Below are positions 273 to 61,615 of a DNA stretch of 64,000 nucleotides, one piece after another (the stretch's first letter is position 1; each line of letters starts with the position of its first letter). This DNA comes from Owenia fusiformis (lineage: Eukaryota; Annelida; Polychaeta; Sabellida; Oweniidae), in the NCBI GenBank assembly GCA_903813345.2, contig CAIIXF020000007.1:19579564-19643563 (forward strand), written 5' to 3'. The notes beneath the pieces were generated by a model, which was not told where the DNA came from, made no database searches, and saw only the letters and a program-made list of their open reading frames with translations. Made by a program: the position numbers and the translations under genes.

Positions 273-1161
273 GTTGACACCGTTGTAAAAACGCAATATC
301 AGCACAGATGGGTTTTTGGACATGACTTGTATAACGGTAGGGTTTATCGTGGTAACCTCCTATCACACCAAACTAGTTCTTACCCGTACTTGCCAGTTCT
401 ACGAAAACGTCGTAAAACGGGCTCAATCTGGCCGTGGTCGGGAAATATGTCTAAAATGATTATGGCTACTTCTTTCATAAACAGTCTTCAATACGTCCAT
501 CTCATTTGCAGTTCGTTCAGGTCGCACCACGTCGGTGTGCAACGTCGTATAACGAGTCCCTTAGTCTAGAAGGTCATCATGACCTGATTACAAAACGGTA
601 AGGTCGCCATCGAATTTTGAATCGATTCAAAATTCTAAATCACATTCCCCAGTGGCGGATCCAGGAACCAACAAGGGCGGGGGGGCCAAATTTCCAGTCA
701 GAGAAAAAAACTTCCAAAAAACTTCTTACCCCCCTATCACACCAAACTCGTTCTTACCCGTTCTTGCCAGTCCTACGAAAACGTCGTAAAACGGGCTCAA
801 ACTGGCTGTGGTCGGGAAATATGTCTGAAATAATTAGCTTCTTCGTTCTTTAACAGTCTCCAATACGTCCATCTCGTTCGCAGTTCGTTCAGGTCGCACC
901 ACGTCGGTGTACAACGCCGTAGAGCGCGTCCCTTAGTCTAGAAGGTCATCATGACCTGATAACAGAACGGTATGGTCGCAATCGAATTTTGAATCGATTC
1001 AAAATTCTAAAATCACATTCCCGTCTGAGAACGTTCATAAAGTTCAAAAATAGACCTTAGAAAGTTGCAGCTACGTTCATTCCGTTCGCACACAGTTTAG
1101 AACCAGTTTTGAAGAACGCAGTGGCAACTTGTTTGGTGTGATAGCTATATTTTTGCTAACT

Positions 1162-1342
1162 CGTTCATAAGCAGTGTTAAATACGTTCTTAATCAGTTTA
1201 AACCCGTTTGCAATGAGTTCTACCTCGTTCTCAACACGTCCTCAGACAGTTCCACTCGTTGTTAAAACGTCCCTAGTAGGATTGAAGTACGACGGTTCCG
1301 TTCGTAGTACGTCCAGCTCGTCGTTAGTACGTTGTCACTCGT
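1162..1342. repeat. Degenerate array with 10-11 nt period (CGT/AGT phased)
   Basis: CGT or AGT triplets start at 1162, 1173, 1184, 1195, 1205, 1216, 1226, 1237, 1248, 1257 and 1268, then CGT again at 1299, 1310, 1319, 1330 and 1340. The average step is about 10.5 bases, one DNA helical turn. The bases between triplets vary, so this is not a simple tandem repeat. A related copy lies near 1934-2120, and a shorter run at 844, 855, 866, 875, 886. Confidence 0.65.
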
Positions 1343-2120
1343 TCTAATTGTAGAACGTGACGACCACGAAAACATTTTGAGCATTGTCTAAGTTCTAGAG
1401 GACCTACCCGTTCGAGTTCGTTCGTTGAAGTTTGTAAATAGACCCCAAACGGTTCTAAGTAAGTCCAGTCCGTTCGTACACAGTTGAAGCTCGTTTTCGA
1501 GAACGAAGTGAAAACTAGTTTGGTGTGATAGTAGGGCAATATGCCCCAATGACCAATAAACCGTGGTGTCGTTCCAAGTACTTTCGATGAAGTTTGTAAA
1601 TAGATCCCAAACGGTTCTTAGTTCGTCCAGTCCGTTCGTATACAGTTGAAGCCCGTTTTCGAGAACGTAGTGAGAACTAGTTTGGTGTGATAGTAGGGTT
1701 AGGGACCCAAAAAAATTTTGGGCCCCTAAAACCGAAAAGTGAGCACAAATTTTGAAATTTTTGAAGCCCATTTTCTTCAAAATTTGGCCTAAAATAAGGC
1801 CTTAGAAGGCCTTTTTTCGGGGCCCAACTTAGGGGGAGGGGGCGGGTCCCACGCCCCCCCCCCCCTCCGGATCTGAACCAGTTTTGAAGAACGCAGTGGC
1901 AACTTGTTTGGTGTGATAGCTATATTTTTGCTAACTCGTTCATAAGCAGTCTTAAAAACCTTCTTTATCTAAACCCGTTTGCAATTAGTTTTACCTCGTT
2001 CTTGATACGTCCTCGGACAGTTCAACTCGTTGTTAAAATGTCCCTAGTATAGGATTGAAGTACGACGTTCCGTTCGTAGTATGTCCAGCTCGTCGTTAGT
2101 ACGTTGTCACTCGTTCTTAT

Positions 2121-2633
2121 TGGAGAGGTTAAGCTTTGCATATATAATCGAAACTGAACCTGTACGTACCACTCGACCATATACAAATTCATGTAGCCTT
2201 CTCATATAAATAGCCGTTCAAATCCAGTGTTTGTTTAGACTACACCATAGCGTGTGTAATGATTCTATAGTATGTCATTGATGCGGTTTTATGGCTGGTT
2301 TTCTAATACATATTTTAAACGAGCTCGTTTCGTAAGATTTTTGGCGCTAAATCACGCATGACATACATCATCGTGTTCAGCAAGAATTCAACTGTGCATC
2401 GAAATCAAAATTGACAGCATAGTGTTCAATAGACACGAGTAAAATGGTTCCCGTTGACCCAACGTCAAATTTCAAATTATCCCGTTCTAAACCCGAAACT
2501 CTGATGCTGAAAGAGTATCTGAAGTAGACTAAGCGCGCATAAAACTATGAGCGCTCGATACATTCCTTTGTTAATTTTTGTACTTTGCGTTCACGGTTAC
2601 GTTGTGAAAAACATCGTTAGCTTAACCTCTCCA
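2121..2633. mobile_element. 513-bp MITE nested in the repeat block
   Basis: Ends are perfect 15-nt inverted repeats, TGGAGAGGTTAAGCT at the left and its complement at the right. The flanks are colinear with an uninterrupted copy of the host repeat at about 1333-1360, so an empty site exists in the same window. The target duplication is unclear (at most about 3 bp). No ORF. Confidence 0.65.
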
Positions 2634-3396
2634 GTGTAGAACGTATCGACCACGAGAACATTTTGAGCATGTTCTAAGTTCTAGAGGACCTACCCGTTCG
2701 AGTTCGTTCGTGTAGTTTGTAAATAGACCCCAAACGGTTCTAAGTAAGTCCAGTCCGTTCGTACACAGTTGAAGCCCGTTTTCGAGAACGAAGTGAAAAC
2801 TAGTTTGGTGTGATAGTAGGGCAATATGCCCCAATGACCAATAAACCGTGGTGTCGTTCCAAGAATTATGTAAGTGTAAGTGCGGTCGGATGAGTTTTTT
2901 TTTGTTTAAAACACGCGACCATGTAATTTGTGCTACGGGGCTTTTTGTTCTTTTTCTTGATACCTGGGAGGAAATCTCATTACCTATTACGCAATGTACT
3001 AGCGACGCGGGTAATTCAAAATTGCACTCTAAGAAATCAAGTTTATTCCAATTAAGTCAAATCGTTTATGTCAAAGATTGCCATCGCCTTTAGTCACCAA
3101 TACTTTCAATTATCTAAACCATTCGACTTTGATAGTAACTAATCACATACAGATGGCGTTTATAAAAATTAAAAATATTTTTAGAATCTTTATTTACGAT
3201 AGCCATTAAGTTGTCATAAACTAAATCATATTATAATCTAATCTGAAATTACAAAAAACTAGGTTTCACTCTTCAAAATCAACTAAAGGCAATGCCCTTT
3301 GGTCCAGTCTTGGCTTTGACTAGATACCAAACCATCTAGTAATCGCGGCAGGCTTCAATCGTGAACTCTAACCCAGCGCACCCATCGGTATCAAAC

Positions 3397-3576
3397 ATGA
3401 TAGGCAACATTGCATTTATAATATTCGGGCTGTCCGTTTGCATCGATGGAAAAATAGTGGATACAGAAGCGGGAAGAGTGGACGGGGACACACTAGATAT
3501 CCACACGGGACATAGAATTAATACTTGGTTTGGCATTCCATTTGCGAAAGCACCAAAAGGAGATTTAAGATGGCGG
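3397..3576 (+). CDS. Esterase exon 1
   Basis: Signal peptide and the start of the esterase fold (DTEAGRVDG, then [15 protein letters not shown]). The donor after 3576 reads GTAAGT, phase 0. An in-frame open stretch reaches back to 3361 but begins with GTG, so the ATG at 3397 is preferred. Confidence 0.88.
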
Positions 3577-22426: not shown

Positions 22427-48441
<26,015 letters not shown>

Positions 48442-60819: not shown

Positions 60820-61615
60820 CCAGAACAACGGCAACGCCAAAGCGTAGCGAATCCCATCGAACAGCCATGGATGGCATTTTTACAAACAAAGTATTTAGCA
60901 AAAATGGCAGGCATTTTTCAAAATGGCCGCCTTCTACCAAAAGTGTCATTAGACCATTTGCCATACTTATAGTATTCACATACCAAATATGAACAAAATC
61001 GCTCCACTACTTTTCGAGTTATAGTAAAATACGTTAAAATGGTGGCCATTTTGAAAAATGGCCGCCTTCTACCAAAAGTGTCATTAGACAGTGTGCCATG
61101 CTTATAGTATTCACATACCAAATATGAACAAAATCGCTTCACTACTTTTCGAATTATTATAAAATACGTTAAAATGGCGGCCATTTTTCAAATTTTTTTT
61201 CAAAATGGCCACCTTCTACTAAAAGTGTCATAGGACAGTGTGTCATGCTTTTAGTATTCACATACCAAATATGACCAAAATCGCTCCACTACTTTTCGAG
61301 TTATAGTAAAATACGTTAAAATGGCGGCCATTTTGAAAAATGGCCGCCTTCTACCAAAAGTGTCATTAGACAGTGTGCCATGCTTATAGTATTCACATAC
61401 CAAATATGAACAAAATCGCTTCACTACTTTTCGAGTTATAGTAAAATAGGTTAAAATGGCGGCCATTTTTCAAAATGGCGGCCATTTTTTAAAATGGCCA
61501 CCTTCTACCAAAAGTGTCTTTAGACAGTGTGCAATGTTTATAGTATTCACATACCAAATATGAACAAAATCGCTCCACTACTTTTCGAGTTACAGCAAAA
61601 ATCGTAAAATAACGA

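Follow-up and report, generated by a model that had tools for sequence, protein, structure and literature searches.

The window analyzed here, a 64,000-nucleotide stretch of Owenia fusiformis DNA, carries near its left edge a cluster of related transposable-element copies (positions 353 to 2863) and, at 3397 to 3576, sequence in which a gene of carboxylesterase type begins (PF00135, E value 4.2e-8). The phased triplets under study lie within one of these copies, copy Y, which was delimited by matches to its terminal inverted repeats (TIRs) and by comparison with copies elsewhere in the genome. The features of the cluster are as follows, in window coordinates; M denotes A or C and is the first base of each site's triplet.

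353..649, plus strand: copy X (second element copy), left part, with its TATC end at 361
729..1536, plus strand: element copy Y of subfamily A, classified as a nonautonomous DNA transposon from TIR matches and genome copies, holding the main array
729..754, plus strand: left terminal inverted repeat, containing the MGTY site 749; the next sites, 759 and 769, lie just inside
844..890, plus strand: left-part phased run, M at 844, 855, 866, 875, and 886
1022..1109, plus strand: phased runs in the inner module that resembles the right end, with M at 1022, 1032, and 1041 and at 1063, 1074, 1083, 1094, and 1105
1131..1143, plus strand: internal right-end copy GTTTGGTGTGATA, element bases 397 to 409
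1158..1272, plus strand: main run of 11 sites, M from 1162 to 1268, none skipped
1295..1344, plus strand: second run, M at 1299, 1310, 1319, 1330, and 1340, with other [AC]GT intervening
1405..1496, plus strand: right-part sites, M at 1409, 1419, and 1429 and at 1462, 1471, 1482, and 1492, with other [AC]GT intervening
1511..1536, minus strand: right terminal inverted repeat, MGTY at base 15 inward
1570..1698, plus strand: third copy, a right-end piece terminating in GTGATAGTAGGG, followed by TTA
1875..2126, plus strand: copy X continued, matching 1100 to 1354 at 91% and holding the run 1934 to 2120
2635..2821, plus strand: copy X, right part, beyond an insertion at about 2123 to 2634

Copy Y is 808 bp long, with 796 bp between its TATC ends; it is flanked by TTA at 726 to 728 on the left and by CAA after 1536 on the right, i.e., the target duplication is not intact. 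The segment inside copy X (650 to 1874) starts with CAGTGGCGGATCCAGG, which we take to resemble hAT ends, and the insertion of about 500 bp in the same copy has inverted ends, GGAGAGGTTAAGC and GCTTAACCTCTCC, by which it is probably another MITE. The right ends at 1349 to 1578 and 2635 to 2863 are 96% identical, and this identity runs about 42 bp past the end of the element; consequently, the cluster includes a local duplication and not nested insertions alone.

The family was followed through the genome (498 Mb, 525 contigs). A search with window bases 1100 to 1540 returned 1931 candidates, 40 of which were scored; of the resulting 50 matches, 40 (window copy included) showed 97 to 100% identity and ten showed 70 to 94%. 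Comparison of the loci placed the family ends at TATCACACCAAAC... and ...GTTTGGTGTGATA, with a 26-bp TIR, CCCYMCTATCACACCAAACTMGTTCT; T[A/T]A usually adjoins both ends, and the usual surroundings are CCCCCC before one side and GTAGGG after the other. The 20-nucleotide end TATCACACCAAACTMGTTCT has 2773 exact matches in the genome (1374 + 1399), while the reversed control pattern has none; at two ends per element, this suggests that the family probably numbers over a thousand copies. Many copies measure 796 bp between the TATC ends, others about 553 to 576 bp, and rearranged copies also occur. Of 19 end pairs that were fetched, 18 span 553 to 802 bp between these ends and the remaining one 986 bp. 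From 28 oriented copies, consensus A (796 bp) was built on 21 rows and consensus B (568 bp) on 7 rows, leaving out three rearranged copies (L015, L021, and L024) as well as any whose ends did not match the script's patterns. Note that consensus A leans toward the window copy, as most of its rows are top matches of the search with that copy. Divergence from the consensus averages 2% over the 21 A and 7 B rows, and the longest stop-to-stop frame is 61 amino acids in A and 60 in B, with up to 135 in single copies. Judged by its TIRs, short length, high copy number, low divergence, and lack of a transposase frame, the family is a MITE, i.e., a nonautonomous DNA transposon. A literature search for a MITE with 10.5-bp periodicity gave no match, by which we make no claim that the family is absent from print.

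Within consensus A, bases 286 to 409 resemble bases 673 to 796 at about 75%, and a copy of the right end lies internally at 397 to 409; by this resemblance, the two segments are an old internal duplication, of which the right-end copy at window positions 1131 to 1143 is the mark. An alignment of one half of A with the other gives 68% identity in 372 columns; since periodic arrays align with themselves, kinship between bases 1 to 285 and 411 to 672 is less clear. Subfamily B lacks most of A 371 to 624, where the strongest run sits; the main run thus belongs to A-like copies. Palindromic forms also occur (L015 at C1:702555-703660, and C11:25045340-25046214), consisting of two left halves or of two copies face to face. 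At about element base 201, the copies L003 (about 1129/1938) and L060 (about 249 to 256) both seem to be interrupted by a family member at CGTCCCTTA, a site that might be a self-insertion hotspot. A frame of about 100 amino acids recurs in the left part of two copies (L032, 1072 to 1377; L034, from 3527), probably by chance.

The sequence-only reading had described CGT/AGT triplets spaced by one helical turn, and a recount reproduced its positions and spacings exactly: in the main run, [AC]GT starts at 1162, 1173, 1184, 1195, 1205, 1216, 1226, 1237, 1248, 1257, and 1268, i.e., at steps of 11, 11, 11, 10, 11, 10, 11, 11, 9, and 11, without a further [AC]GT in between. CGT does resume on about the same step in the second run, and triplets out of step within 1162 to 1342 start at 1275, 1286, 1303, 1306, 1322, and 1326. 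Both related runs that had been pointed out were recovered as well, the one at 844 to 886 in the same element copy (steps of 11, 11, 9, and 11, with one extra [AC]GT at 882 out of step) and the one at 1934 to 2120 as the equivalent segment of the second family copy. In the Fourier comparison with shuffled controls that had been proposed, the CGT spectrum over 1162 to 1342 peaked at 10.5 and was matched by none of 500 dinucleotide shuffles; the same held for four further patterns (0 of 500), and the peak of a sixth, GT plus any base, was matched in 4 of 500. Because this stretch had been selected by eye, a scan of the whole window (150-bp stretches, step of 25, both strands, periods of 10.3, 10.5, and 10.7) is the fairer control. 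Its top stretches start at 1126, 1101, and 1151, with scores of 9.9, 7.7, and 7.6, all within the same element, and elsewhere than in the repeat cluster no stretch scores above 4.59 (at 48401). The phased array is real, statistically strong, and unusually long for a helical array, in an element of an ordinary kind.

The triplets are present and phased as first read, but the real unit is longer: in consensus A, it is A-N3-[A/C]GT[T/C]C, mainly on one strand and about once per helical turn. Specifically, A-N3-MGTY occurs 34 times on the plus strand of A versus 9.0 times in shuffles, and 17 versus 5.8 times in B; the minus strand of A has 11 occurrences versus 4.4 expected, with weak periodicity at 10.9 (0 of 200 shuffles). 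Beyond window base 2900, such motifs number about 3 per kb per strand, compared with 43 in consensus A. Over all MGTY sites, A gives a best period of 10.40 and B one of 10.50, reached by 0 of 300 shuffles each, so that both the repeat family and the period across its copies, as anticipated from the single locus, were borne out. The control pattern KGTY was not periodic, 186 of 200 shuffles being as high in A. MGTY pair distances in A cluster at 11, 20, 31, 42, 53, 62, and 73 bases, and counted inward from the consensus ends, sites lie at 15 and 25 on the left and at 15 and 26 on the right in both A and B. At a period of 10.5, the in-phase sites of bases 15 to 371 lie near one phase, and those of 428 to 606, just past the internal end, about half a turn off.

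For a finer description of the motif, 38 sites picked as in phase were aligned, GT and the A/C at position 0 being universal by that choice. Of these sites, 31 have A at -4, 29 have T at +3, 25 have C at +4, and 24 have A at +7; the remaining positions are nearly random. The Myb core AAC[G/T] is the reverse complement of MGTT, and the Myb site has a purine after the core. The array might thus consist of sites for a host regulator, e.g., a Myb-type factor, used for expression or targeting: MGTT matches the Myb core, and the sites are dense and mainly on one strand. However, the consensus contains no frame over 61 amino acids, and the base at +4, after MGTT or MGTC, is that C in 25 of 38 sites instead of the purine of a Myb site, a partial fit; we consider host-regulator sites quite unlikely.

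A period of 10.4 to 10.5 would also suit a nucleosome or DNA-bending element, in which the period sets DNA wrapping, and AA and CG do differ in phase within 420 to 620. Nucleosome positioning had been among the explanations suggested for the triplets, but the periodicity of AA/TT/TA against GC-type sequence (WW/SS) turned out to be ordinary. At three positions in the array, it ranks at 3%, 26%, and 32% among 6386 stretches of the window, and when the spacers were shuffled with the motif core kept, it was reproduced in 163 of 500 cases. The positioning claim is not upheld by these figures, and an explanation by wrapping appears very improbable.

A more serious contender is a minisatellite relic, in which slippage of a 10- to 11-bp unit built the array and the period is a mere memory, without binding function. 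Traces of such slippage are present: an 11-bp stretch is tandemly duplicated in B compared with A, copy L019 is without one 11-bp stretch, and Tandem Repeats Finder reports a weak 22-bp array at 1158 to 1208. The mean step, however, is 10.2 to 10.4 (10.6 in the main run) and not 11, and the units are nearly random outside -4, the MGTYC core, and, weakly, +7. The distances between sites are also sharp out to 73 bases, a range over which phase-keeping is thereby supported. Compensation of unequal steps is only suggested. In a first test on eight runs picked by phase, a choice favouring the result, the 31 steps had a mean of 10.32 and a standard deviation of 0.79, and four of six steps of 9 sat between two 11s; the variances of sums over two, three, and four steps were 0.78, 0.64, and 0.54, compared with 1.25, 1.88, and 2.50 for independent steps, and the lag-1 covariance was negative (permutation P = 0.014). 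For unselected chains of successive MGTY sites, the corresponding variances were 1.37, 0.50 (n = 10), and 0.40 (n = 6) versus 2.34, 3.51, and 4.68 if independent, with the long chains stemming mostly from the main run (consensus 428 to 534) and the runs sharing ancestry. The unselected lag-1 covariance gave P values of 0.23 for MGTY, 0.021 for A-N3-MGTY, and 0.60 for all [AC]GT, and the lack of significance for the first and last of these sets counts in favor of a relic. This weaker outcome slightly lowers the standing of an array of protein sites, including the bolder version given below, and slightly raises that of the relic.

Conservation of the motif bears on the same choice. The expectation that triplets are kept better than spacers held for GT in the internal duplication, where 16 of 16 GT columns are kept, compared with 40 of 57 other columns (P = 0.016); taking the sites from the opposite half gives 14 of 14 versus 44 of 63. 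It did not hold for the whole motif core, either there (38 of 47 kept; P = 0.26, not significant) or between the subfamilies. When A is compared with B, 29 of 30 and 14 of 14 GT columns are retained, but the core (81 of 90 versus 260 of 278 for the rest, and 37 of 41 versus 118 of 131) is no better kept, again in line with a relic. In individual copies, MGT columns stand at 1.6% versus 2.1% in A but at 2.4% versus 1.9% in B, a divergence of 2% being too little for this comparison. When the halves of A are aligned, MGTY columns show 76% identity versus 66%, a difference of little weight since periodic arrays self-align. Within the left 370 bases, A and B differ by an A/C exchange at eight positions, four of which (15, 298, 329, and 349) coincide with the M of in-phase sites, where the exchange preserves M; this post hoc observation speaks against a relic. 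Such exchanges on M number none of two in the right part of the A/B comparison and one of two in the internal duplication. Overall, these alignments suggest selection on the triplets. Slippage of an 11-bp unit certainly contributes to the array and, on the sequence evidence, may account for everything; as the full explanation, we give the relic a substantial probability that nevertheless stays well below one half.

The TWA flanks point to PIF/Harbinger as the likely superfamily; a TWA target is given for this group in PMC4482050. In 29 TWA pairs, 18 drawn from the first 100 entries in a list of 2568 ends and 11 read by eye from the locus comparison, W is identical on both sides in 17 (11 of 18 and 6 of 11) and differs in 12, the set excluding non-TWA or indel-shifted flanks, the window copy (TTA/CAA), and L004 (TTA/TCA). 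The mismatches may stem from donor-site overhangs that moved along with the element, and the nested case L003 fits a TTA target duplication. PIF/Harbinger elements and their MITEs (PHIS superfamily) share with the present family TIRs, a probable TWA target, and short, high-copy copies; the family differs in that no transposase is linked to its ends among the loci inspected and in the mismatched W of 12 of 29 pairs. Among loci of the DDE transposase PF13359 (150 matches listed, 269 candidates), 21 (14 + 7) were checked for the TIR, family sequence, and inverted repeats over 5.3 to 5.7 kb each, and none carried the family ends or sequence; a phased-MGT scan of the first 14 gave a best score of 5.2.

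Several loci were considered as autonomous elements and set aside. An 8.5-kb end pair (L032) proved to be two family copies, L051 has family copies at both ends, and in L052 a segment containing a 374-amino-acid frame splits a single copy close to its right end. Thirty-two odd continuations of the TIR were found and four of them fetched, of which L034 and L035 are family copies, whereas L033 and L036 each show one isolated end-like match and no second end to pair with it. Most of the remaining 28 look like slightly altered family ends. Patterns for an alternative TIR continuation gave no matches in some cases and two deletion variants elsewhere, and another continuation pattern had two matches, one within family copy L018.

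In our view, the array is best read as putative sites for the element's own DNA-binding protein arranged on one face of the helix, a reading that we hold tentatively, at just short of an even chance. An autonomous relative would supply this protein in trans, either the transposase or a partner such as the Myb-like protein of PIF/Harbinger, a group marked by a second gene with a Myb/SANT/MADF domain; in zebrafish Harbinger3_DR, a Myb-like protein recognizes a 9-bp subterminal motif (PMC9710019). The protein would bind along one DNA face, probably cooperatively, and many weak sites together would mark and pair the element ends. The array would have grown most likely via duplication of a 10- to 11-bp unit, its phase then being held as out-of-phase versions moved less well. 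For this reading, we count the high-copy family with TIRs, the period, the excess of A-N3-MGTY, the sites near both ends, the A/C exchanges on M in the left 370 bases, and the retention of GT in 16 of 16 cases; against it, none of the 21 PF13359 loci inspected is an autonomous partner, the sites run mostly in one direction, while end-recognition sites are often mirrored, the core is not significantly better conserved, compensation depends on the set of sites, and slippage events exist.

The closest comparison is the left end of IS1535, a member of the IS607 family, where four 9-bp motifs in helical phase are bound by TnpA, whose filament captures the opposite end; the same source states that IS607 ends are not always spaced in helical phase (PMC6188088). 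The likeness lies in short direct motifs at 10- to 11-bp steps near a transposon end, the cooperative filament being a result for IS1535. However, IS1535 is a bacterial element with a serine transposase that has neither TIRs nor a target duplication, and its four motifs lie between about 20 and 60 bp, whereas the present element, bounded by TIRs and flanked by TWA, carries roughly in-phase sites, some 38 in number, along about 750 of its 796 bp. By analogy, the element may work like an IS607-type end, yet it is not a member. Galileo and Foldback elements are alike in having internally repetitive ends with several transposase sites, as described for Galileo (PMC3688188), but the excerpted account presents Galileo as a P-superfamily element with a THAP transposase and inverted repeats over 1 kb, and mentions no once-per-turn phasing. 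In place of the long repetitive inverted repeats of that group, the present family has a TIR of only 26 bp, and its sites number 34 on the plus and 11 on the minus strand in A, the palindromic copy L015 being an exception to this one-strand layout.

A bolder version of the protein-site array, which we think unlikely, would treat the whole element of about 800 bp as one continuous helical operator, marked and paired by a filament of DNA-binding protein on some 38 phased A-N3-MGTTC sites, with M being A or C since both offer a major-groove amino group; TWA insertion with carried-over donor overhangs would then explain the W mismatches. If the array does bind protein, its helically phased stretch would far exceed the four motifs of IS1535 in length and would be a substrate for testing polymerization of a eukaryotic transposase or partner on transposon ends. 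The young copies, probably more than a thousand, also supply natural variants in site number and phase.

Elsewhere in the window, tandem arrays lie at 26312 to 26706 (period of 126 to 145 bp), 41728 to 42092 (22 bp), 47189 to 47529 (20 bp), and 60901 to 61600 (135 bp), the first and last of which contain ATGGCNGCCATTTT-like palindromes.
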